Source: Subtercola lobariae
GTDB lineage: Bacteria > Actinomycetota > Actinomycetes > Actinomycetales > Microbacteriaceae
Direction: 5' to 3'
DNA: 64,000 bases
NCBI RefSeq assembly: GCF_014640255.1
Contig: NZ_BMGP01000001.1
Coordinates: 62,001 to 126,000, forward strand
The translations under genes were made by a program, and so were the position numbers. Below are positions 21,264-33,060 of this stretch, piece by piece (the stretch's first letter is position 1; the number at the start of each line of letters is the position of its first letter). The notes under the pieces were generated by a model, which saw only the letters and a program-made list of their open reading frames with translations, was not told the DNA's origin and searched no databases.

Positions 21264-22361
21264 TCAGTTGGGGTGTAACTCACTCACCTGAGGCTCATTC
21301 ACCGCCGCAGTACGCACCGCACGCGGCGCTCCCGCGGCGACCGCTCGCGCCGCGACCGCACCCACCGCGACCGCGTCGGGCCCGACGCTCCCGCGCACGC
21401 GCAGCGCCGCAGGCTCGATCCACGCAGAGGCCGCAGTGACGCGACCGAGGTACTCGCCGTCGATCTCGAAGTCTTGCGCCTCGCCCGCCGCGAGCGTCAC
21501 GGCCCGAGCGCGCCCGTGAACTACCGAGGTGGTCGAAACGGGGGCCGTGCCCGTGGCGGCGGCACGGGCATCCGCTCGCCTCGGCAGATACGGCGTATTG
21601 GTGCGCACGAACCAGCCCACTGCGCGGGCCCATTCGAGCGCGCCGAGCGGGCGCAGAACCACCACGTCGAGCAACCCGTCGTCGATGCGTGCGCCCGGAA
21701 TCATGCGGATGCCCGCCGGCAGCACCCCCGCATTACCGATCACGATCGTGTGCGCCGGTTCGGGCCGCTCTGCCACCTCGTCGAGCGAATAGGTCAGCTC
21801 GAACCGCTCGTTGTTGCGAAACGATCCCACAATGGCGGCGATGTAGCCCGTCCAGCCGAGCGTGCTCTTGCCCCGGTCTGACGTGTTCACCACCATTTGC
21901 GCGTCGACACCCATGCCCGCCATCACCAGGAACGCCCGCTGCACGGTTTCGCCCGACTCGAGCGTCGCATCCACTCGCCCGGCGTCGACTGAGCGCACGG
22001 TGTCGCCGAACGCCGCCCGTAGAGCTGCCTTACGACTGCCGAGCGGCAGGCCGAGTGCCCGTGCGAAGAGGTTCGTCGTTCCGGTCGGCAGGATGCCCAG
22101 CGGCACCCCCTGGTGCCGAAGCGCCTGCGCCACCGCGCTCACTGTTCCGTCGCCGCCCGCCGCAATTACCACATCGGGTTGCTGCTCGAGCAACCTCAGC
22201 GTGGCGCCCTCTCCGGCGTCGTCGAGAGTTGTCGCAGCCCATAGGCTCGGCCCCCACGACTTTTCGGCCTCGATTCGCTCGACCTGGGCCCGCAGCCGGC
22301 CCGCATCGACCTTTGTGGGGTTGTAGACGATTGCGGCGCGCGGTCTCGGCACATTCGACAC
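21264..22361 (-). CDS. Diacylglycerol/sphingosine kinase-family lipid kinase
   Basis: 365 residues. The catalytic domain shows AAGGDGTVS (nucleotide binding) and ILPTGTTNLFARALGLP, followed by IGNAGVLPAGIRMIPGARIDDGLLDVVVL, all typical of bacterial DAG kinase (DgkB/YegS) proteins. The C-terminal 50 residues are an Ala/Val-rich tail. It phosphorylates a lipid alcohol, most often diacylglycerol, at the membrane. It is the last gene in the minus-strand lipid run, 48 bases after the ferritin-like gene, and could phosphorylate alkyl- or alkenyl-glycerols in the proposed ether-lipid pathway (inference). Confidence 0.87.
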   Translation of the reverse strand: MSNVPRPRAAIVYNPTKVDAGRLRAQVERIEAEKSWGPSLWAATTLDDAGEGATLRLLEQQPDVVIAAGGDGTVSAVAQALRHQGVPLGILPTGTTNLFARALGLPLGSRKAALRAAFGDTVRSVDAGRVDATLESGETVQRAFLVMAGMGVDAQMVVNTSDRGKSTLGWTGYIAAIVGSFRNNERFELTYSLDEVAERPEPAHTIVIGNAGVLPAGIRMIPGARIDDGLLDVVVLRPLGALEWARAVGWFVRTNTPYLPRRADARAAATGTAPVSTTSVVHGRARAVTLAAGEAQDFEIDGEYLGRVTAASAWIEPAALRVRGSVGPDAVAVGAVAARAVAAGAPRAVRTAAVNEPQVSELHPN

Positions 22362-22409
22362 GATCAGCAGCCCGTCATCAGCAGGAGGCCGGCCGTCTCG
22401 CAGACGGCG

Positions 22410-23204
22410 CTAAGCCGCGATGCCGTTCGCGTCGAGCGAGTCAGACACAATCGTCAACCCGCCGAGCCCCGGCATCTTCGCGATGTGGGCGTCGATAGCG
22501 TTGATGGCTTTGCGCCCGTCGGGGCCACCGAAGATGTGGCCCATCACGTGTTTGACCTCGGCCTTGTCCATGATGGTCGAACCCACGGGCCCCCAGAACT
22601 TGCCCAGAGCGAACCGCGCGAACTTCTGCGCTACGACACTCTTCGCGAGACGTTCGCGGGCCTGAGTCGCGTAGAAGGCAACGTGCCGTGCCTCTTGCAT
22701 GGCGATGCGCTTCAGCAGCTCGGCGAGCACCGGGTTGCCTTCGATCTCGGCGAGGCGCTTGTAGGCGGCCACGGCCGACCATTCGTTGGCCGCACCCCAG
22801 ATCATGTGCACGGCGATGAAGTCTTTGCCCACCAGGTTCGACAGCACAGACTGCTTCACCGGGTCGATGCGGTCTTTCCAGCCGAGCTTCAAGCGCTTCG
22901 ACTTGAGTTCGTCGAACTCGAGGGTGATGTCGTGCATCCGCAGCACGTCGGCGAGTGCTTCGCCGTGCCAGAACTCCTCGCGGTTCCACATGGTCATGAA
23001 GCCGGTCACGTCAGAGTCGCGGTGCGAAGGGGTGACGAGCATGTCGCGCATGTAGCAGACGGTGTGGTACTCGACGTCAGCCATGTAGCGAACGACACGC
23101 AGAGTGTCGGGGGGCAGCGGGTTGGTGCGGAAGTCTTCGAAGTCGAGGTCTTCCCACGCCACATTCTTGCTGGTCTTGGTGTAGTTGTCGATGTCGAAGG
23201 CCAT
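22410..23204 (-). CDS. Ferritin-like diiron protein, acyl-ACP-desaturase-like
   Basis: 264 residues, four-helix diiron fold. The six ligands of the desaturase class are visible in order and spacing: E45 in VEYHT, E77-x-x-H80 in REEFWHGE, E141 in NEWSAV and E171-x-x-H174 in QEARHVAFY. Proteins with this set activate O2 for desaturation or hydroxylation of acyl chains. A paralogue at 27950 has lost several ligands. Because it sits with a fatty acyl reductase, AGPS-like enzyme and acyltransferases, I propose it as a candidate for modifying an alkyl or acyl chain, possibly vinyl-ether formation. That role is inference. Confidence 0.75.
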   Translation of the reverse strand: MAFDIDNYTKTSKNVAWEDLDFEDFRTNPLPPDTLRVVRYMADVEYHTVCYMRDMLVTPSHRDSDVTGFMTMWNREEFWHGEALADVLRMHDITLEFDELKSKRLKLGWKDRIDPVKQSVLSNLVGKDFIAVHMIWGAANEWSAVAAYKRLAEIEGNPVLAELLKRIAMQEARHVAFYATQARERLAKSVVAQKFARFALGKFWGPVGSTIMDKAEVKHVMGHIFGGPDGRKAINAIDAHIAKMPGLGGLTIVSDSLDANGIAA

Positions 23205-23345
23205 GAGTGCTTGAGACGAACCGCGCGAGGCGCTTCGGTCTCATCCCTCCCGTTCTGTCGTATTCCGTTCGCCAGGTCTACTGACTATTCTGCCGTGCTT
23301 CTATTCTGCTGTGCTTTGCTGAAAATTTGCGTGGTGTGAAAAGTT

Positions 23346-24074
23346 CTACTTCACCCAGACGGTTCGCCTGGTCGACTTATCGGGTGCGGTTGCCTTCCAG
23401 ATGCGCTGCCAGCGAGCCGAATCGCCGACGTCGCCAGTGCTCGAACCAGCACTCGAGCCCGCAACCGCAGCAAACGTGCCTTCTGCTTCAGCCCGAAGCG
23501 CTCCGTACCACCCTGCCTCGGCCTCAGCGAGCCCGAGCGTAATAGCCTTCACGATCTGGTCATTCACCGCAGAGGGTTCGGAGCCCGGCGCCGCCTGGAT
23601 TGGTCGCCCGAAAATAACGCTCACTTTCGGCCGCGAGGTTTCGGGCAACCGTCGCCATGGCGGCAGCGCCCGGTACGTGCCAACGAGTGTCACCGGCACG
23701 ATCTGCACGCCGGTCTGGATGCCCAGCCGAGCAGCCCCCAGATTGAACTCGGTCAGCGTGCCGTCGTCTGCGCGGTAGTTCTCGGCGAAGAGCAGCAGGC
23801 TCCCCCCGTGCGCGAGCATGGAGGTGAGTGTTCGCGTCGTGCGCAGCCCGAGCGATTTGACCGCCGCGGCACGCAGCCCCGTCTCGGGCGCAGCACTCAC
23901 GCTGACCACTCGCCGCACAACGCCCTGCAGCACCTGCGACACGAGCGGAGCATCCAACTCGCTCGGATGGTTCGCCACGAAGATGAACGGCCCCGGCAGC
24001 TCGGTCAGATATTCGCGGCCGCGTACCACCGGGTTCACCAGCAGCCGCACCGCCTGGCGCGAGGGTGCAGCCAT
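23346..24074 (-). CDS. PlsC-type acyltransferase with altered block III
   Basis: 242 residues of the lysophosphatidic acid acyltransferase family. Block I NHPSELDAP carries the catalytic HX4D. Block III, normally FPEGTR, reads FAENYR, keeping E and R but changing G and T, which bind the phosphate. VPVTLVGTYRALPPW is a normal block IV. The ATG overlaps the LarA-like stop by one base, so translation is coupled. The altered block III could mean a different acceptor (for example DHAP or a non-phosphorylated lipid) or reduced activity. An Ala/Ser-rich insert precedes the C-terminal WKATAP segment. Confidence 0.78.
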   Translation of the reverse strand: MAAPSRQAVRLLVNPVVRGREYLTELPGPFIFVANHPSELDAPLVSQVLQGVVRRVVSVSAAPETGLRAAAVKSLGLRTTRTLTSMLAHGGSLLLFAENYRADDGTLTEFNLGAARLGIQTGVQIVPVTLVGTYRALPPWRRLPETSRPKVSVIFGRPIQAAPGSEPSAVNDQIVKAITLGLAEAEAGWYGALRAEAEGTFAAVAGSSAGSSTGDVGDSARWQRIWKATAPDKSTRRTVWVK

Positions 24075-25609
24075 CAGCTCACCTCAGAGATGCTCACTGG
24101 CGCACCGTGCACGTACGTGATCGAGGGGCTGAGGCCCACAGAGTCTGACGCCATTTCGAGAGCATCGTTCAGCGTGGTCGCGGCCTTGAAGCCCATGCGC
24201 CTGGTCGACTCGAGGTTGCCGCCCACGAAGATGATCTCGCCGAGGTGCTCGATGGCCGGTGCTGCCGAGTACCAGGCGTGAAACGGGTGCAGCGCGTGGT
24301 GCGCGTAGCTCGTCTGGTAGAGGTGGCGGTACCACGAGTCAGCGGCGAACCGGCCCTCGAAGTCGGCGGCGAGCACGGCCGGGTCGGTGGTGGCACTCAG
24401 CGCTTCGGCGAAGAAGTCGACGTATGCCGGGTGGTAGAGCGGGTGAAACCATGGTGTCAGCGGGTGATAGAAAATGGCCGTGCCGCCGGCCCTGACCACG
24501 GGTTTCGCGGCCTGACCGTTGAAGATCTGGCCGAGCCCCAGGCTCGCAGCAGTCACCGGATTCAGCGCGGTGCCCACCCCATTCGGGTTCGGAATGCCGA
24601 ACAACGCAACATCTGCGGGCGAATCGACCACGCCCACCTGCTGCTGGGCCAAGAACGCTTCGGTGAGTGGATGCACGGAACTCGGCTTGCCCGCAAGAAC
24701 CGACGTCACCCCGAAACCCACGCCCGATACCTGAGACAACCCGAGCCGCGCCCGTGACGGCAGCACCTTGGTCGCGGCCTGAATGCCGGCCGACAGCACC
24801 CGGTCGGTGATGCTCCACTCGCGCTCGCGCTTGCTCAGAAACGCCGTCGCGGGCCCCGTCGGTTCGGGCGTCAGCGTCACATCGATGGTGAAGACCGTGG
24901 CCTTGTCGCCGATGGTGTCGACGAGCGATTCGAACGCCGAAGCACCAGCGGCAGCCGCCAACGGCGAGGTCAGAGCACGAGCCGTTCGAGCGCTTGCCAG
25001 CTTTGTGGCGACGGCAGGCGCACCCTCGTTTCCGACCGCTGTCGCGAGCCGAACCGAGATCACCAGATCGCTCGACACCACCCGCGCATTGATCTCGATG
25101 GGCGTGCCGTCGGCAGCCTTGCCGACCTCCACGAGGTTGCCGTCTTCGGCGTCGTGGCTGTGCAACTGGTCGGGAAAGAACGAGGCGAACACACGCTCGC
25201 CGAGCACGCGCTGCAGGTCGTACGGGGTGAGCCTTCGGCGCAGACCGGTTGCAGCGATCAACTCGACGTCGTCGACGCCCGCGGCTGCCGCCAGTTCGAG
25301 CACATGCTCGATGACGCGCTGCCGAACATCTGGAGCCGTGCGAGACGTGATGGGCTGCGAGAGGTCGTCGAAAACCACGGTGACGCGAGAGCCGCGCTGC
25401 AAAAGGGCGGCGAGTGGTTCGCTGTCGACCGGGTTGGCGAGTGCGTGCGCGACTTCGGCGTCGAGTTGATGGATGCCCGGCAGCGCATCGGGCGGGTAGA
25501 GCACGCTCGCGCCGCTCGGCAGCCGCTCGAGCAGCACCTTCTCGCCCTGAAATACGACGAGCGGCGGGGTCTGGGCGTCGACGCTCAGAACGAAGCCTGG
25601 TCTACTCAT
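24074..25609 (-). CDS. LarA/DUF2088-like protein lacking nickel-pincer residues
   Basis: 511 residues with the lactate racemase N-terminal fold: VFDDLSQPITSR corresponds to the LarA DHTRP region and ATGLRRR to LarA ATGFHRP. Judged by eye against LarA of Lactiplantibacillus plantarum, the pincer-cofactor residues H108, H174, K184 and H200 have no counterparts here (H108 is R). Instead the C-terminal third is His-rich (FYHPLTPWFHPLYHP and YAHHALHPFHAWY), which could form another metal site. It overlaps both neighbours (1 base with plsC, 8 with the reductase). Racemase activity is unlikely; the role in the lipid operon is unknown. Confidence 0.7.
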   Translation of the reverse strand: MSRPGFVLSVDAQTPPLVVFQGEKVLLERLPSGASVLYPPDALPGIHQLDAEVAHALANPVDSEPLAALLQRGSRVTVVFDDLSQPITSRTAPDVRQRVIEHVLELAAAAGVDDVELIAATGLRRRLTPYDLQRVLGERVFASFFPDQLHSHDAEDGNLVEVGKAADGTPIEINARVVSSDLVISVRLATAVGNEGAPAVATKLASARTARALTSPLAAAAGASAFESLVDTIGDKATVFTIDVTLTPEPTGPATAFLSKREREWSITDRVLSAGIQAATKVLPSRARLGLSQVSGVGFGVTSVLAGKPSSVHPLTEAFLAQQQVGVVDSPADVALFGIPNPNGVGTALNPVTAASLGLGQIFNGQAAKPVVRAGGTAIFYHPLTPWFHPLYHPAYVDFFAEALSATTDPAVLAADFEGRFAADSWYRHLYQTSYAHHALHPFHAWYSAAPAIEHLGEIIFVGGNLESTRRMGFKAATTLNDALEMASDSVGLSPSITYVHGAPVSISEVS

Positions 25610-27953
25610 GAGTTGTCTCTTTCGGGCTTTCGAGGGTGAGTGGAGTGTGCGCCGGCGCGTGGGTGGTGCTCGCCATGTCGCCGCGCACGAGTTCGTTGAT
25701 GGTGTTCAGGCGCGAACGGGCCTGATCGTTCCACTGGTGAATGCGCCAGTGCTTGGTGGTGGCGTGCTGAAAGAGCGCGGCGTCGGGGTTCACGGCCTGC
25801 GGGTTGCCCACCAGCTCGAGCCAGGCGCGGTCGGCGTGAGAGTCGCCGTAGGCGTACGACTTCGAGAGGTCGAGGCCTTCACGCTCGGCGTAGAGTCTGA
25901 GCCAGGCGGCCCGAGCCTCATCGACGAGCGGCGGCTTCGAAAGGTAACCCGTCCACACGCCGTCTTTCGAGTGCATGGTGCTGGCGACCACCTCGTCGAA
26001 GAGCGAGGTGAACGGCTCGGTGAACACATTGATCGCACCGGTGACGAGCACGGTGCGGTGCCCGGCCTCGCGGTGCTTGCGAATCTGCCGAACAGCCTCG
26101 GGGCGGATGCGCTGCAGCAGCACATCGCCGATGGAGTCGTGAATCAGCGAACGCAGCGCCGCCTCGTCGACGCCTTCATACCGCCTGAGGAATGTACGGA
26201 GAAACTCGCCGCGATCGCGTCGATCGGTAGCAATGTAGCGCGGCAGCGAGCCGAACAGATTGGCCAGCTCGGCCGGCCACTTCGATTTGTCGACACTCGC
26301 GAGCCGCACCCAGAGGTACTGCTCGATGATGTTCGTGGCCAGCACCGTGCCCTCGAGGTCGAACACGGCGACCACGTTCGGCACCTGCGGCAGCGGCTTC
26401 TCTTTCTGCTCCTTGGCCCGGGGGCGCGAGCTGAAGGTGCGCATGAGCGTCGTGATGGCCGGAAAGTGCACCTGCTGCAGGTAGTGATCCCAGTCGATGT
26501 CGGTCGCGTCGAAACCGAACTTCTCCAGTTGCGACTTCGGCAGGGTCTCGTTCAGCGCTGCGGTCTTGCTGTCGTCGTAGATGATCTCGGCCTGCGTGTA
26601 GTTCTGGTACAGGTCGGAGTAGGCGCGAAGCAGTTCGAGGTCCGTCTGCCGAGCAGAGACCTGGCGCTGCCAGTTGCGGGTGGTCTTGCCAGAGGGCAGT
26701 CGCAGCAGGGCTCGCTGAGCGTACTTGTTCGAGCGCTCGCCGAACTTCAGCGAACGGGCGATGGCGCGGGCGCCCGGAAAGGCCCAGAGCGGTGCGCGAA
26801 TGTGCCCTCGCTGATCATCCGGAATCGGATTCGCCCGAAAGTAGGTGAGCACGTTCTCGTAGATGTCGCGAAACGTCAGCGGGTTGCGCCCGCCCGAACT
26901 GAGGTGAAAGTACTTCGGCTCGTCGCGCGGCGCCGGGTTGGCGGCAACGGCGAGGGTGGCGTTCACCACGATGTCGACCGGAATGATGTCGAGAATGCTG
27001 TCAGGCAGGCCCGGAAACTCGGGCAGCAGGCCGCGACCGTAGGCGATGATCAGCGGGTCGGCGACCTTGAAGCCGTCGATCCAGCCGGGGTAGGGGTGTC
27101 GCAGGGCGCTTTCGATGATCGCCGGCCGCACCACCGAGAGGCGGTGCCCGTTGCCGGCCCAGAGTTCTTCGGCGACACGCTCGCTCATCGACTTGGTGAG
27201 GGCGTACACGTCGGCCCAGCCGAGGCTCTGCGCGCGCACCCGACCGTAGTCGACCAGGCGTGCGGTGACCCAGGCGTTGCGGCCTTCTTCGGCGGCAGCG
27301 GCCACGGCCTGCGGGCCGACCTTGCCCGACACGGTACGGGCTTCGGCGATGACTTTGCGGAGGATTTCGGGGCGCCGCGACGAGGCCTCGACCTGCGCCC
27401 GGGCGGCGATCGCGGCATCCATCTCGACCCGCCAGTTCACGCTGTGCTTGAGCGACGCCTCGACGGTCGTGCCCTTGCGAATGCCGCCCACATACGCGGT
27501 CGACACGTGCACGACGTGCGGGTCTGAGCCGGTGCGCAGCAGTGCTTCGTAGAGGCCGACGGCCCCGCCGACGTTGGTCTTGAAGGCCTCGTCGATGGGC
27601 GGGTCGAACGACACGGTCGAGGCGCTGTGAATCAGCACGTCGAGGTCTGACGGCAGGCTGGCCACGTCTCCCATGGTCGACTCGACCACCGTGATGCGCT
27701 CGGCAGCGGCACGCTCGACCTCTTCTTTGCCGACCCGCTCGCGCCACGTGGCGAAAACCGGTTTGCGTAAGAGGCTCGTGAGTCGCGCCTGGCCGGTCAG
27801 CGAACCCTTCGGGCGAATCAGCAGGGTGACGCGGGTGGTCGGGTAGTCGGCGAGCAGTTTCTCGAGAATGGCCTGGCCCACGAAGCCGGTAGCTCCGGTG
27901 AGCATGATGTGCTGGCCCTCGAGGGGCGCGAACTCAGCGGTGCGCGGGCTCAC
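25602..27953 (-). CDS. Fatty acyl-CoA reductase (SDR) fused to HAD-IB hydrolase domain
   Basis: 783 residues. The N-terminal part is an extended short-chain dehydrogenase of the fatty acyl-CoA reductase/thioester reductase type: GATGFVG (20-26) for NAD(P)H, HVSTAYVGG and the catalytic YALTKS near 249, then SVVRPAIIES and a HLSSGG region. Such enzymes reduce acyl-CoA to aldehyde or alcohol. From about 525 a phosphoserine-phosphatase-like HAD domain follows: VFDLEGTV (the second Asp of DxD is Glu), VTGAIN and AYGDSHAD. It overlaps ferritin-like B by 4 bases and the LarA-like gene by 8. Fatty alcohol from this enzyme is what AGPS would need. Confidence 0.82.
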   Translation of the reverse strand: MSPRTAEFAPLEGQHIMLTGATGFVGQAILEKLLADYPTTRVTLLIRPKGSLTGQARLTSLLRKPVFATWRERVGKEEVERAAAERITVVESTMGDVASLPSDLDVLIHSASTVSFDPPIDEAFKTNVGGAVGLYEALLRTGSDPHVVHVSTAYVGGIRKGTTVEASLKHSVNWRVEMDAAIAARAQVEASSRRPEILRKVIAEARTVSGKVGPQAVAAAAEEGRNAWVTARLVDYGRVRAQSLGWADVYALTKSMSERVAEELWAGNGHRLSVVRPAIIESALRHPYPGWIDGFKVADPLIIAYGRGLLPEFPGLPDSILDIIPVDIVVNATLAVAANPAPRDEPKYFHLSSGGRNPLTFRDIYENVLTYFRANPIPDDQRGHIRAPLWAFPGARAIARSLKFGERSNKYAQRALLRLPSGKTTRNWQRQVSARQTDLELLRAYSDLYQNYTQAEIIYDDSKTAALNETLPKSQLEKFGFDATDIDWDHYLQQVHFPAITTLMRTFSSRPRAKEQKEKPLPQVPNVVAVFDLEGTVLATNIIEQYLWVRLASVDKSKWPAELANLFGSLPRYIATDRRDRGEFLRTFLRRYEGVDEAALRSLIHDSIGDVLLQRIRPEAVRQIRKHREAGHRTVLVTGAINVFTEPFTSLFDEVVASTMHSKDGVWTGYLSKPPLVDEARAAWLRLYAEREGLDLSKSYAYGDSHADRAWLELVGNPQAVNPDAALFQHATTKHWRIHQWNDQARSRLNTINELVRGDMASTTHAPAHTPLTLESPKETTHE

Positions 27954-28852
27954 GCGGTCACCTTCACGCCGAAGCGACGAGCGGCTTTGCTCATCACTTT
28001 CAGGCCGCGCTGGCCGGGCAGGGAGTCGACGACCCGATCTACGGCCGCGATGTCAGCGCGCCCTGAGGCATCACTGAACAGGTAGGTCATCATGAATCGG
28101 GTCTCCTGGGTTGGTTGTTCGGCGGTGCCGGTGGGCGCCCACGCACGCTTCAAAGAAGAGCGGGTGAGTTTGCGAGCCGAATTCGATTCTTCCAGCCGCC
28201 GAAGGGTTTCGCCTTCAAAAAACTGCAAATGGCGGTTGCGCAGTACCTGAAAGCCCTCGAGAACCTCGGTCAGCGCCTCGTTGTCATCTTTTTTCAGAAT
28301 CTGACTGTACGTGGCCCGGCTGACCAGTTCATCAATGAAGCCGCGCGTGACGTGAATCGCAATGAAGTCTTCGCCGATCAGGTTGGCCCGTACGGCGGTG
28401 AAGATGGGCGAGACGCGGTCGGCGAACTCGCGGCCGAAGCGCACGACCCTCAGCCGCGCCCGGTTCTTGGCGGGCACGAACGAACTGTGCGCCGCGAGAA
28501 TGCGGTCGAAGGCGTCGGCGATCCAGTACTTCTCGAACGCCCAGGTAGCCAGAAACGCGGTGAGGCGCGCGTCTTTATGCGAGGGAGTCACCAACACGTC
28601 ACGCATGTGGTGCATGGTGAAACGCTCGAGGTCGCGCAGGTACGCTATGGCACGCAAGGTCTTGCCGGCGAGTGGATGCTCGGCGAAGGCTTCGAGCGGC
28701 AATGAATCTGCATGACTGCCGGCAGCAGTGCGGGTATAGGCACGAATGTCGAAGTCGCCCGAATCTTCTGGCACGGGCATCCACTCAGCCGCATCGTCGG
28801 TCGCAGCGGCGTCGTCGAACGTGTTTTCGGGGGTGGTGGGCAGGTCAGTCAT
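27950..28852 (-). CDS. Ferritin-like protein B, degenerate diiron paralogue
   Basis: 300 residues, clearly homologous to the protein at 22410 (shared MRD-LVTPSH, HV/HM and helix pattern) with a 40-residue acidic N-terminal extension. Ligand positions differ: E76 and E175 remain, but helix-2 ExxH is K108..I111, and helix-4 ExxH is R205..H208. A normal diiron centre is therefore unlikely, suggesting a non-catalytic partner or another metal. The ATG at 28852 has GGAGG six to eight bases upstream and leaves about 100 bases to the divergent SDR gene; longer readings run through that gene. First gene of the coupled minus-strand operon. Confidence 0.75.
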   Translation of the reverse strand: MTDLPTTPENTFDDAAATDDAAEWMPVPEDSGDFDIRAYTRTAAGSHADSLPLEAFAEHPLAGKTLRAIAYLRDLERFTMHHMRDVLVTPSHKDARLTAFLATWAFEKYWIADAFDRILAAHSSFVPAKNRARLRVVRFGREFADRVSPIFTAVRANLIGEDFIAIHVTRGFIDELVSRATYSQILKKDDNEALTEVLEGFQVLRNRHLQFFEGETLRRLEESNSARKLTRSSLKRAWAPTGTAEQPTQETRFMMTYLFSDASGRADIAAVDRVVDSLPGQRGLKVMSKAARRFGVKVTA

Positions 28853-28954
28853 CGGGGGCCTCCAAGGCCGGTGGGAGCGGTGCGAGCGTGTCGAACACCC
28901 AGATTTCTCTGTATGCACAGTAGTCGTTCGCTGCGGTGACGTATCTTGGTTGCC

Positions 28955-29725
28955 ATGGTTACGGCTTTGGTTACAGGCGGCACGTCGGGCATCGGTGCGG
29001 CGTTCGCGCGCGCATTCGCAGAGCGGGGTGAGAACCTCGTGCTGGTGGCGCGTGACCAGACGCGCCTCGATGAGACGGCCGAATCGCTGCGCCAGGCATA
29101 TGGCGTCGAGGTCGAGACGGTGTCGGCCGATCTCTCTGATCGTGCCGATGTGGTGCGTGTCGCCGAGGTTCTCTCGCGAGAGACGAACCCCATCGGCGTG
29201 CTGGTGAACAATGCCGGATTCGGCATACACACTCCGTTGCTGGCCGAAGACACCGCTCCGCACGAGCGAGCGCTCGACGTGATGGGCCGCGCCGTGCTGA
29301 TGCTGGGTGCAGCCGCAGGGCGCGGAATGCGAACGCGCGGCACGGGAACCATCATCAACATCTCGAGTGTCGCCGGGTACATCACCATGGGCAGCTACTC
29401 GGCGATCAAGGCGTGGGTGACGTCGTACACCGAAGGCCTGGCCGTTGAATTGAAGGGCAGCGGCGTGCAGGTCACGGCGCTCTGCCCGGGTTGGGTGCAC
29501 ACCGAATTCCATGAACGTGCAGGCATACGAGAATCGTCGATACCCAACTTCTTGTGGATCGACGTCGACGAGCTGGTTGCCGACTGCCTGGCAGACGTGG
29601 CAAAAGGCAAGGTCATCTCCATCCCCTCCGGCCGATTCAAATTCTTGACGTTCTTCACTCGGCATCTGCCGCGCAGCACCATCCGTGCCATTTCGGGTCG
29701 CATCTCGTCGAGCAGATCGCACTGA
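28955..29725 (+). CDS. Short-chain dehydrogenase/reductase
   Basis: 256 residues, classical SDR: TGGTSGIG at the N terminus, NNAGFG, active-site Ser in NISSVAGY and YSAIK. C-terminal region LTFFTRHLPRSTIRAISG is basic and hydrophobic, as in membrane-associated lipid SDRs of the DHRS7/17beta-HSD type. Start at ATG 28955, since TTG at 28946 is less likely. It shares a divergent promoter region with ferritin-like B and lies upstream of plsC and AGPS. In an ether-lipid pathway it would be the alkyl-DHAP reductase (inference). Confidence 0.85.
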   Translation: MVTALVTGGTSGIGAAFARAFAERGENLVLVARDQTRLDETAESLRQAYGVEVETVSADLSDRADVVRVAEVLSRETNPIGVLVNNAGFGIHTPLLAEDTAPHERALDVMGRAVLMLGAAAGRGMRTRGTGTIINISSVAGYITMGSYSAIKAWVTSYTEGLAVELKGSGVQVTALCPGWVHTEFHERAGIRESSIPNFLWIDVDELVADCLADVAKGKVISIPSGRFKFLTFFTRHLPRSTIRAISGRISSSRSH

Positions 29726-29805
29726 CCTAAATAGTATCCTCCAGGCACTTTGCCAGGTTTTTGGTGCCGTTTCGGTTCCGCTGAGCTATTGAGTACGCTG
29801 GGCAG

Positions 29806-30579
29806 GTGGAGTTCGGCAATCGTTACACGTCAAAGGCGCAGGCCGGTGCCCGCTTCGTCGCGCAGCGAATGCTGCTGAAACCCGTCATCTGGTCGCTGGT
29901 GCAGGTGAACATCACTGGTCGTGAGAAGGTTCGCGAGGTGAAGGGCGGCTACATCGTGGTGGCGAACCACTCCAGCCACCTCGATGCGCCCTTGATTCTG
30001 GGGTCGATGCCCAGCAGGCTCTCGAGGTATCTCGCGGCTGCGGCTGCGGCTGACTACTTCTTCGACGTGTGGTGGCGCAAAGGCCTCACTGCCCTTTTCT
30101 TCAACGCTTTTCCGGTCGATCGCAGTGCGAACGCCAAGTCGAACGGCTTCACAACCAAGCTGCTCAAGCGCGGCGTACCGCTGCTGATCTTTCCCGAAGG
30201 CACGCGCTCGAAAGACGGCACCATTGCGCCGTTCAAGGGTGGTGCGGCCGCGCTCTGCATCAAGGCCGGCATTCCGTGCATCCCGATGGCCCTGGTCGGT
30301 GCCACCGAGGCAATGCCGCGTGGCCGCAACTGGCCGGTTCCGGGTCGCCCGCCCGTCTACGTCGCCTTCGGTGACCCGCTGGTGGCGGGCGAGGGCGAGA
30401 GTGTCGACGACTTCAACCAGCGCATCGAGAAGACCGTTCGCGAGATGCATGTGGCTCAGAAGGCGTTGCAGGCCGCCGCTGCCGGCACGAACGTGCATGA
30501 CTACCCACAGCTCGAAGCAGATGCCGGCGCACCCGAGGGCCAGGCAGACGACAACGATTCAACAAGAGGAGCCGCATGA
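29806..30579 (+). CDS. 1-acyl-sn-glycerol-3-phosphate acyltransferase (PlsC family)
   Basis: 257 residues with intact blocks: NHSSHLD (HX4D catalytic pair), FNAFPVDR, FPEGTRSKDG and IPCIPMALVGA. Acylates the sn-2 position of lysophosphatidate or, in this context, 1-alkyl-glycerol-3-phosphate. GTG start at 29806. The AGPS-like gene overlaps its stop by 4 bases (ATGA), so the two are translationally coupled. The acidic C-terminal tail is variable. Confidence 0.87.
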   Translation: MEFGNRYTSKAQAGARFVAQRMLLKPVIWSLVQVNITGREKVREVKGGYIVVANHSSHLDAPLILGSMPSRLSRYLAAAAAADYFFDVWWRKGLTALFFNAFPVDRSANAKSNGFTTKLLKRGVPLLIFPEGTRSKDGTIAPFKGGAAALCIKAGIPCIPMALVGATEAMPRGRNWPVPGRPPVYVAFGDPLVAGEGESVDDFNQRIEKTVREMHVAQKALQAAAAGTNVHDYPQLEADAGAPEGQADDNDSTRGAA

Positions 30580-32249
30580 CCGACGTCAAGCACATGAAAT
30601 GGTGGGGCTGGGGCGTCGAAGGTGTGGGTTTTCACCACGAAGACAAGCCGGGGTTTGCGCCATTCGTTGTGAATGCCGTCGGTATCGATGTGTGGAAGGA
30701 GCCGGTTCCGCCGATCTCGTTCGACGAGCTCGACGTTCCGGTGAGCCAGACGCCCGACGAGCTGTTCGATGCTCTGACGACCATCGTCGGCCCCGAGTTC
30801 GCGACGAAAGACGATGAAGAGCGTGTGGTGCACACGTATGGCAAGAGCATCCGAGACCTGATTCGGTTGCGCGCCAGCGTTCTGCCCCGCATTCCCGATG
30901 TGGTCGTCTACCCGGCCGACGAGAGCGCAGTGCAGCGCATCGTCGACCTCGCTGTGGCGTCAGATGCCGTGATCATTCCGTTCGGCGGTGGCAGCAACAT
31001 CGTGGGTTCGCTCGAGCCGATACCCACCGAGACGCGCCCCGTCATCTCGCTCGACATGGGCCGCATGTCACGTGTACTCGACATCGACGAGTACTCGGGG
31101 CTGGCCGTGATTCAGGCCGGCGTGCTTGGGCCCGACATGGAAGAGCAGCTGAACGCCCGCGGCTGGACCATGGGTCACCAGCCCGATAGCTTCACCTACT
31201 CGACGCTCGGTGGCTGGATCGCCACACGCTCGTCGGGCATGCAGAGCGACAAGTACGGCGACATCGCCGAGATCACCAAGGGTCTGCGCGTTGTTCAGCC
31301 GGGCAAACTGCTCGTCGTGCGGCCGATTCCGTCGTCGGCCACCGGGCCGAGCGTTCGTGAGGCCATTCTCGGCAGCGAGGGTCGCCTCGGCGTCATCACC
31401 GAAGCGACCGTTCAGGTGCACAAGCTGCCCGCCAAGCGCGAAGTCATCGGCTACCTCTTTCGCGACTGGGATTCGGGCCTCGCCGCCATGCACGACATAA
31501 ACAAGAGCGACGCCGCGCCCTCCATCACCCGGGTTTCGGATGCCCGTGAGACGGCCTTCTCGTTCTCGACCTCGAAGGCATCGCACGGCATCAGCGGTCA
31601 GGTGCAGAAGGCCCTCTTCGCGTTTTTGCAGCGTCGCGGCTGGAACCTCGACGAGGTGTGCCTCTCATTCATCGGCTACGAAGGTTCAGCGGCGAACGTT
31701 TCGCACCAGAAGTCGGTCGTCGGCGACATTCTGAAAAAGCACGGCGCCATCACGCTCGGCAAGGGCCCCGGTGCACTGTACGACCAGAAGAAGTTCGACA
31801 CCCCGTACCTGCGCGACTTCCTGCTCGACCGCGGTGCTGCCGCCGACGTGTCAGAGACCTCTGCGCCGTGGTCGAAACTCAAGCCGCTCTACGACAACGT
31901 GTTCGCTGCCGCGAACAAGGCCTACGCCGAGATCGGTCTCGAAGGCGACGGCTGGATCATGTGCCACCTGTCGCACTCGATGCATTCCGGCGCGTGCCTG
32001 TACTTCACGTTCGCGTTCACGCACGATGGGGTCGACCCACTCGCTCAGTACGATGTGGTGAAGTCGGCCATCCAGCAAGCCTTCATCGACTCGGGGGCAA
32101 CGCTCTCGCACCACCACAGCGTGGGCGTAGAGCACTCGCAGTGGACAGAGCAAGACATCTCGCCCGCGGGCGCCGACCTCGTGCAGGGCATGTTCACCGC
32201 GGTAGACCCCGGCAACAACCTCAACCCCGGCAAAATCCTCCCGCGGTAG
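30576..32249 (+). CDS. Alkylglycerone-phosphate synthase-like FAD enzyme (AGPS)
   Basis: 557 residues of the vanillyl-alcohol-oxidase/PCMH flavoprotein family, specifically the AGPS branch: N-terminal KWWGWG, FAD loop PFGGGSNIVGS, GHQPDSFTYSTLGGW, ATRSSGM, GSEGRLGVITEA and the C-terminal SHHHSVG (near 512) that corresponds to the catalytic His cluster of eukaryotic AGPS. AGPS swaps the acyl chain of acyl-DHAP for a fatty alcohol, forming the ether bond. Coupled to plsC by a 4-base overlap and 4 kb from a fatty acyl reductase. This is the strongest single piece of evidence for ether lipids. A generic FAD-linked oxidase is the alternative. Confidence 0.83.
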   Translation: MTDVKHMKWWGWGVEGVGFHHEDKPGFAPFVVNAVGIDVWKEPVPPISFDELDVPVSQTPDELFDALTTIVGPEFATKDDEERVVHTYGKSIRDLIRLRASVLPRIPDVVVYPADESAVQRIVDLAVASDAVIIPFGGGSNIVGSLEPIPTETRPVISLDMGRMSRVLDIDEYSGLAVIQAGVLGPDMEEQLNARGWTMGHQPDSFTYSTLGGWIATRSSGMQSDKYGDIAEITKGLRVVQPGKLLVVRPIPSSATGPSVREAILGSEGRLGVITEATVQVHKLPAKREVIGYLFRDWDSGLAAMHDINKSDAAPSITRVSDARETAFSFSTSKASHGISGQVQKALFAFLQRRGWNLDEVCLSFIGYEGSAANVSHQKSVVGDILKKHGAITLGKGPGALYDQKKFDTPYLRDFLLDRGAAADVSETSAPWSKLKPLYDNVFAAANKAYAEIGLEGDGWIMCHLSHSMHSGACLYFTFAFTHDGVDPLAQYDVVKSAIQQAFIDSGATLSHHHSVGVEHSQWTEQDISPAGADLVQGMFTAVDPGNNLNPGKILPR

Positions 32250-32331: not shown

Positions 32332-33060
32332 TTACTCGACCTCGTCGAAGATGGGGCCCGTGTGCGTGGCGGGCTCGGCCGGAGACTGCAGCTTGGCGCG
32401 CTGCAACAGCTCTGCGGTCACCATGATGGGGCGGTGGTCGCTGAGGCCCTGCGGGAGGGTTTCGACGAGTTGGATGTCGAGGCCCTTCGAGGTGAGAAAG
32501 TCGAAGTGGTACGCGATCGACTTCGTGTAGAAGTAGGTGGGGCCGTCGCTCAGCGACAGCGAGTAGCCGGCCGACTCGACCTGCTTGATGAGCTTGTTGC
32601 GCAAGATGGGGTAGTTGAAGTCGCCCGCCATGAGCGTCGCAGCGCCGTGGCTCAGGTCGCTGAGGTGGGTGAGGGCAGACCTGATCTGACGGCGCCGCAG
32701 CAGGTTCGTCGCCGAAAGCGGAGAGGCGTGAAACGACGCGAGCTGAACGTCTTGCCCGGTTTCGGTGTCGACCAGGTGTGTAGTGAGCAGTCGCTCGATG
32801 CCCGGCAGCAGCATGCGGTCGTGCATGGCTCGGCGCAGCGCGAAGGCGTGCGAATCGAGCGCCGTGAAGCGGCTCGGCCGGTAGTAGATGGCCAGGCCGA
32901 GTTCGCTCTTATAGGTGGCGCTCGCCAGACGCAGATCACCGATCTCGGTGGGCATTCTCACGCCGTCGCCCTCTTGCAGGGTCAGCGCGTCAACGGGGTA
33001 ACGCTCAATCAGCTCAAGCAGTTCAGCGGTTGCTGCGTGCCTGCGCAGGTTGTAGCTCAT
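32332..33060 (-). CDS. Endonuclease/exonuclease/phosphatase family protein
   Basis: 242 residues of the DNase I-like EEP fold: MSYNLR at the N terminus, metal-binding TLQE (E near residue 30), AGDFN and the terminal SDHRPI with catalytic Asp-His. Substrates in this fold range from DNA to phosphoinositides, so none is assigned. The start is the ATG at 33060; related proteins often have a strand residue or two more (the frame reads LKI before M) but no other start codon is available. Confidence 0.82.
   Translation of the reverse strand: MSYNLRRHAATAELLELIERYPVDALTLQEGDGVRMPTEIGDLRLASATYKSELGLAIYYRPSRFTALDSHAFALRRAMHDRMLLPGIERLLTTHLVDTETGQDVQLASFHASPLSATNLLRRRQIRSALTHLSDLSHGAATLMAGDFNYPILRNKLIKQVESAGYSLSLSDGPTYFYTKSIAYHFDFLTSKGLDIQLVETLPQGLSDHRPIMVTAELLQRAKLQSPAEPATHTGPIFDEVE

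Follow-up and report, generated by a model that had tools for sequence, protein, structure and literature searches.

In mammals, ether lipids are made in peroxisomes by FAR1, GNPAT, AGPS, an acyl/alkyl-dihydroxyacetone phosphate (DHAP) reductase, AGPAT and PEDS1, the last of which acts on the finished membrane lipid. In Myxococcus xanthus, the elb and MXAN_1676-1674 operons encode a fatty acyl-CoA reductase (FAR)-like domain, an AGPS homologue, members of the NAD-dependent epimerase/dehydratase family, a HAD protein and acyltransferase domains (PMC9131029, in excerpt). According to the same excerpt, only one suborder of the myxobacteria has CarF homologues, and outside the myxobacteria true ones are reported only in Leptospira. 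A 64,000-nucleotide stretch of the Subtercola lobariae genome (contig NZ_BMGP01000001.1, positions 62,001 to 126,000; referred to below as the window) includes, at 21264-32249, two divergent arms of genes that almost certainly constitute an ether-lipid locus. On balance, we favour the view that this locus produces ether glycerolipids by an aerobic, animal-like route and finishes them as plasmalogens, with two ferritin-fold proteins, DiA and DiB, serving as a soluble vinyl-ether desaturase.

The genome of the window (G000; G numbers denote genomes and L numbers loci in the analysis) comprises 4.09 Mb in 22 contigs, and the window lies in contig 1. The minus-strand arm consists of genes for DiB, FAR-HAD, a LarA-like protein, the acyltransferase PlsC_a, DiA and a lipid kinase, and the plus-strand arm of genes for a short-chain dehydrogenase/reductase (SDR), the acyltransferase PlsC_b and alkyl-dihydroxyacetonephosphate synthase (AGPS). 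Each of these genes is an open frame at the coordinates given below. The original prediction, made from the sequence alone, had described a divergent block with FAR, an AGPS-like protein, two PlsC acyltransferases, an SDR, a lipid kinase and two ferritin-like proteins, and had overlooked the LarA-like gene. All the predicted genes were recovered as open frames, and Pfam confirmed the types of the FAR, AGPS, PlsC, SDR and kinase proteins. Overlaps of 1 to 8 bases, which it had placed inside each arm, occur at four junctions (PlsC_a/LarA, 1 base; LarA/FAR, 8; FAR/DiB, 4; PlsC_b/AGPS, 4), whereas at the remaining junctions within the arms the genes are 48, 141 and 80 bases apart. The arms are separated by 102 bases.

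The product of the gene at 30576..32249 (plus strand) is assigned as AGPS, with predicted alkyl-DHAP synthase activity. It includes FAD_binding_4 and FAD-oxidase_C domains (Pfam) and the motifs KWWGWG and SHHH, and its closest solved relatives are the alkyl-DHAP synthases 2uuu (E 6.9e-114) and 4bby (E 7.1e-86). In the alignment it is identical to 4bby at H300, R419, R515, Y578 and H615-617, which we take to be the AGPS active site. FAR-HAD (25602..27953, minus strand) combines an NAD_binding_4 domain (PF07993, E 2.2e-43) that has the GATGFVG (Rossmann) and YALTK (YxxxK) motifs with a fused HAD-IB phosphatase domain (PF12710, E 2.8e-34); a C-terminal Sterile domain scored 31.2 bits in Pfam, under the cut-off of 35.4. 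All four motifs had been noted in the original prediction. The SDR (28955..29725, plus strand; PF00106, adh_short, E 4.2e-41) has as its best NCBIfam model mycolate reductase, at 168.2 bits against a cut-off of 380, and is read from its gene context as a candidate alkyl-DHAP reductase. PlsC_b (29806..30579, plus strand; PF01553, E 5.3e-24) is the acyltransferase of the conserved core.

Conservation of the locus was counted in named loci, the best 80 of 308 relatives. The six-gene core (AGPS, PlsC_b, SDR, DiB, FAR-HAD and DiA) is complete in 60 of the 80, and chance grouping of these genes is therefore excluded. Individually, DiB was found in 70, FAR-HAD in 63, PlsC_b in 61, and SDR and AGPS in 60 each; short contigs account for some of the 20 incomplete loci. 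Loci with the complete core are found in Microbacteriaceae, Ruaniaceae and Jiangellaceae, and their gene order varies. Most often AGPS-PlsC_b-SDR faces DiB-FAR-HAD-DiA, and FAR-HAD lies between DiB and DiA in the majority of core loci, while in Ruania DiA, DiB, FAR-HAD, SDR, PlsC_b and AGPS all run in one direction. A close AGPS lies away from the DiA locus in all six Jiangella genomes searched and in Naasia, and it belongs to an intact FAR-HAD/SDR/PlsC_b/AGPS block in the two Jiangella contexts and the one Naasia context retrieved. DiA of the window is 92-98% identical to DiA of seven Subtercola records and 86% identical to that of Labedella. The claim of an ether-lipid locus is strongly supported.

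Dimethylacetals (DMA) link the genus to plasmalogens. In Subtercola vilae DB165, i-16:0 DMA amounts to 17.0%, a-15:0 DMA to 3.2% and a-17:0 DMA to 1.9%, about 22% in all, and dimethylacetals were also recorded in the three further type strains of Subtercola in the table, in low amount in Agreia and not at all in Frondihabitans (PMC5945732, in excerpt). The full core is present in S. vilae DB165 (L065; genome G003) and in Agreia bicolorata (L121). These data support the plasmalogen part of the original prediction, and it is probable that Subtercola makes plasmalogens by this route.

The two ferritin-fold proteins differ in their metal ligands. In one alignment of 32 DiA and 31 DiB sequences, DiA (22410..23204, minus strand) keeps E45, E77, H80, E141, E171 and H174 in 32 of 32 sequences, and this set has the pattern expected of a carboxylate-bridged diiron site. 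The same pattern (E, ExxH, E, ExxH on a helical bundle) is seen in acyl-ACP desaturases. DiB (27950..28852, minus strand), the frame of which is better started near 28852 since the 290 codons upstream are an antisense read through the SDR gene, retains E45 in 31 of 31 sequences, H174 in 28 and E141 in 22. At E77 it has Lys in 25 sequences and Glu in one; no sequence has His at H80 (Ile in 23) or Glu at E171 (Lys in 19, Arg in 8). Judged by this alignment, DiB is a ligand-poor paralogue of DiA that has lost three ligands and has basic residues at the positions of the bridging glutamates. The proposal that both ferritin-like proteins are of the diiron type was hence rejected for DiB, and only DiA has a full site. 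DiB is probably a non-catalytic, metal-less partner; a role as a subunit is suggested by its position in the cluster and by the presence of at least two matches to DiA in 90 of the 92 DiA-bearing Microbacteriaceae genomes (hand count).

AlphaFold2 models of both proteins are confidently predicted helical bundles, with a mean predicted local distance difference test score (pLDDT) of 88.3 for DiA and 88.7 for DiB. In Foldseek, the seven best PDB matches of DiA are soluble acyl-ACP desaturases at 12-16% identity (7t63, E 7.1e-4, TM-score 0.59; 1oq4, TM-score 0.64), followed by R2-like oxidases, and the fold matches of DiB are weak (best E 0.049). DiA scored 18.9 bits with the acyl-ACP desaturase family PF03405, just under the curated cut-off of 22.7; it gave no match to the CarF family PF10520 in Pfam at E up to 1, and no match of any kind in PHROGs.

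In the proposed pathway, FAR would convert acyl-CoA to a fatty alcohol, one PlsC would convert DHAP to acyl-DHAP, and AGPS would exchange the acyl group for the fatty alcohol to give alkyl-DHAP. The SDR would then form 1-alkyl-glycerol-3-phosphate and one PlsC would add the sn-2 acyl group, while the HAD domain may serve as a phosphatase. With O2 and a ferredoxin-type donor, DiA would introduce the 1'-double bond, DiB being its metal-less partner subunit; DiA might act on a soluble precursor (alkyl-DHAP or alkyl-glycerol-3-phosphate) instead of the finished membrane lipid. No other product of the core is a predicted O2-activating metalloenzyme, and the modelled fold of DiA suggests a soluble, ferredoxin-driven desaturase. 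We infer every enzymatic step, above all the reaction, substrate and electron donor of DiA and its pairing with DiB. The new diiron desaturase of the original prediction is thereby sharpened to a catalytic DiA and a partner DiB; it is plausible but unproven, and the chance that DiA is the vinyl-ether desaturase is about even. No report linking plasmalogens of Actinobacteria with a ferritin-like protein was found among titles and abstract openings of Creative Commons-licensed PMC papers.

The strongest alternative accepts the ether lipids but has DiA and DiB act elsewhere, in mid-chain desaturation or hydroxylation or on an acyl lipid, with the vinyl ether formed by an unrecognised enzyme in or outside the locus. 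Ordinary chain desaturation would suit the acyl-ACP-desaturase fold. The co-occurrence of DiA and AGPS across 299 Microbacteriaceae genomes argues against it: DiA was found in 92 and a close AGPS in 85, with both in 84, DiA only in 8, AGPS only in 1 and neither in 206. For this table DiA was accepted at E of at most 1e-10, and AGPS matches of 32-38% identity were excluded (G027, G142, G143, G220, G291 and G346). G191 is DiA-positive by a single match at E 5.3e-34, a value typical of DiB matches; G179, the sole AGPS-only genome, is 85% complete; and the lack of AGPS in G185 is doubtful because the cluster is at a contig start and the FAR-HAD match contains one stop. Hand-counted by genus and entered in a Fisher test that ignores shared ancestry, the figures are 28 with both, 2 with DiA only, 1 with AGPS only and 54 with neither. 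The flanking of FAR-HAD by DiB and DiA in most core loci speaks against this alternative as well.

Several observations nevertheless weigh against DiA as the vinyl-ether desaturase, and some of them favour this alternative directly. Among 396 Actinomycetota genomes, DiA-like proteins (E at most 1e-30) were found in 20 and AGPS (E at most 1e-100) in 46, and by hand count the two overlap only in G000 and G728. Distant DiA homologues hence do not track AGPS, and the link between DiA and AGPS holds within the close DiA family but not for all distant homologues. Only one Foldseek match of DiA (7t63) is below E 0.001, and it would be unusual for a soluble enzyme to act on a membrane lipid. In Jiangella no DiB was found near DiA, having been looked for at the DiA locus only. 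In twelve genomes DiA is present but both a close AGPS and FAR-HAD are lacking, namely five of Agromyces and G035, G067, G158, G180, G220, G288 and G303; G180 and G288 are the genomes of the Leifsonia loci L096 and L087, respectively, and count once each, and G220 has an AGPS-like protein at 35%. As the active site is retained there without the pathway, DiA would have a second or a changed role in these genomes.

The phylogeny of DiA counts against the alternative. It covers 100 of the 112 loci L031-L142; L050 has no DiA, and L031, L032, L035, L037, L041, L045 and L058-L062, which are further Subtercola loci or presumed twins of named loci, were omitted. The ten Microbacteriaceae rows labelled as lacking AGPS, including L111, whose genome lay outside the AGPS search, form one clade (98/75; parent 99/92) nested among AGPS-linked ones, so that the AGPS-less Microbacteriaceae sampled represent a single derived clade. 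In loci of this clade DiB and DiA lie side by side, as if these were remnants of the core after FAR-HAD had dropped out from between them.

DiB-DiA pairs without nearby ether-lipid genes were seen at L087, L096, L104, L107, L111, L130, L133, L138 and L140 (Leifsonia, Agromyces, Glaciibacter and Naasia); the ether-lipid block is elsewhere in the Naasia genome and not in the Leifsonia and Agromyces genomes. Ten neighbours scanned at DiA loci with the ether-lipid genes absent or elsewhere (Na/H exchanger, DNA ligase, YchJ-like, luciferase-like, methyltransferase, LuxR-type regulator, spermine synthase-like, solute-binding protein, lyase and DUF4396) include none that points to lipids. DiA homologues of 34-45% identity (L169-L178) occur here and there in other lineages of Actinomycetota, where no shared neighbours were recognised, and none of ten neighbours scanned around distant DiA homologues points to lipids.

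Kineococcus presents a further difficulty. Kineococcus radiotolerans (G117) has FAR-HAD (44%), AGPS (60%) and SDR (48%) but no close DiA. Another species of the genus, the aerobic Kineococcus rubinsiae, contains 2.9% anteiso-15:0 DMA, which the MIDI system had labelled as C14:0 2-OH and which its finders called "surprising at first sight" (PMC7472656, in excerpt). If Kineococcus plasmalogens arise in this way, DiA cannot be the sole enzyme capable of the step. DiC, a distant DiA homologue located ~70 kb from FAR-HAD in K. radiotolerans, was found in this species and other Actinomycetales (L161-L166); it is 26-32% identical to DiA and, on visual inspection of an alignment, retains the six ligand positions. 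In Kineococcus and its relatives DiC, at about 28% identity, may do the job of DiA. Together with the Agromyces and Leifsonia genomes, K. radiotolerans provides real evidence against the desaturase assignment, and action of DiA and DiB on another substrate, although less probable than the vinyl-ether role, is a serious alternative.

The whole-genome search for CarF proposed earlier gave no PF10520 match in G000 or in any of the 119 relatives, including S. vilae, but no control genome rose over the cut-off and the sensitivity is unproven, which tells against assigning the step to DiA. According to a second alternative, the dimethylacetals of Subtercola come from an anaerobic, reductive route of the PlsA/PlsR type and the locus makes alkyl lipids only. 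HGD-D (PF06050), taken here as the marker of PlsA, is encoded in 3 of 12 Subtercola genomes (G001, G002 and G009), in keeping with such a route, but was found neither in G000 nor in the dimethylacetal-containing S. vilae (G003), in a search that did match E. coli and M. jannaschii and also 4 of 30 relatives, three of which are Subtercola. By these searches S. vilae, a strain with measured dimethylacetals and with the locus, shows neither known maker of the vinyl ether. Genes plsA/plsR occur in some Actinomycetales, but neither long-chain alcohols nor DHAP were found to be used by the anaerobic route (PMC9702350, in excerpt), and this explanation is very unlikely.

A slighter chance attaches to DiA being an aldehyde deformylating oxygenase that makes alkanes together with FAR-HAD. 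FAR and a ferritin-fold diiron protein do adjoin, and a fold neighbour of DiA at rank 18, 6d9f, is titled with aldehyde deformylating oxidase activity; however, DiA has no Pfam deformylase-family match at E up to 1, it is found without FAR-HAD, and alkane synthesis would have no need of the AGPS, SDR and PlsC that co-occur. The idea that the 30576 protein is another FAD-linked oxidase of the glycolate/lactate dehydrogenase type can practically be dismissed: both protein types share the same Pfam domains and the top NCBIfam model is glcD (119.5 bits, far under the cut-off of 567.9), but the AGPS structures match at E 7e-114 to 4e-85 against 6e-18 for the next solved relative, glycolate oxidase, and the AGPS active-site residues are retained.

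The remaining genes of the locus lie outside the core. PlsC_a (23346..24074, minus strand; PF01553, E 6.1e-11) was found in 8 of the 80 named loci (seven Subtercola and one Labedella), and the LarA-like gene (24074..25609, minus strand; Lar_N, E 7e-27) in 9 (seven Subtercola, Labedella and L086, from a metagenome-assembled genome). Being limited to these few loci, both are regarded as lineage additions. The 24074-25609 product was also considered as the SDR and rejected, since it is LarA-like and the SDR is encoded at 28955-29725 on the plus strand. Its nearest model is LarAH14/15/16 (NF052592, 503.7 bits against a cut-off of 740). In the window, S. vilae and Labedella, Arg replaces a conserved His of solved homologues, presumably His108, the first catalytic His, whereas L086 has His. 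LarC (PF01969), required for synthesis of the nickel-pincer nucleotide (NPN) cofactor, was not found in the window genome by a search whose control matched 6 of 14. With both the catalytic His and LarC wanting, an active racemase is doubtful, and the protein is probably a non-racemase LarA fold within a lipid operon of Subtercola and Labedella.

The YegS/DAGK-type lipid kinase (21264..22361, minus strand; PF00781, DAGK_cat, E 1.9e-19) is accessory and adjoins DiA in most Subtercola loci and in Labedella. At L157 (8119-10658; G111), a DAGK-type kinase (31%) lies directly beside a 36% AGPS homologue, the same pair of gene types as in the window. A gene of the endonuclease/exonuclease/phosphatase family at 32332-33060 adjoins AGPS, as it does in 6 of 7 named Subtercola loci and in Labedella.

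The locus offers a concrete, conserved gene set for plasmalogen making by aerobic actinobacteria, with a candidate for the vinyl-ether step. Tentatively, DiA and DiB may represent a third, unrelated solution to vinyl-ether formation besides CarF/PEDS1 and PlsA/PlsR, namely a soluble heteromer of a diiron and a metal-less ferritin-fold protein whose substrate in aerobic Actinomycetota would be alkyl-DHAP, alkyl-glycerol-phosphate or the finished lipid. If this is true, oxygen-dependent plasmalogen synthesis has arisen once more in evolution, with an enzyme of a different protein fold.

The anaerobic PlsA/PlsR reductases would give rise to the same dimethylacetals but work reductively from diacyl lipids (PMC9702350, in excerpt), and their marker HGD-D was not found in G000 or S. 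vilae. DiA shares its diiron ligand pattern and nearest solved fold with the soluble acyl-ACP desaturases (castor, ivy and Thunbergia; DesA2 of M. tuberculosis), but differs from them in falling under the PF03405 cut-off, in its 12-16% identity and in having a ligand-less paralogue in the same cluster. The M. xanthus operons include comparable gene types, and M. xanthus is likewise an aerobe, with iso-branched ether lipids (PMC9131029, in excerpt). However, the enzyme that makes its vinyl ether is CarF, to which a search here, without a working control, gave no match, and the excerpt makes no mention of DiA or DiB. Like the mammalian pathway, the Subtercola locus has counterparts of FAR, AGPS, the reductase and the acyltransferases, gathered in one place. 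It differs in its bacterial operons, in the fusion of FAR to HAD and, by hypothesis, in the replacement of the PEDS1/CarF-type membrane desaturase by a soluble ferritin-fold pair.

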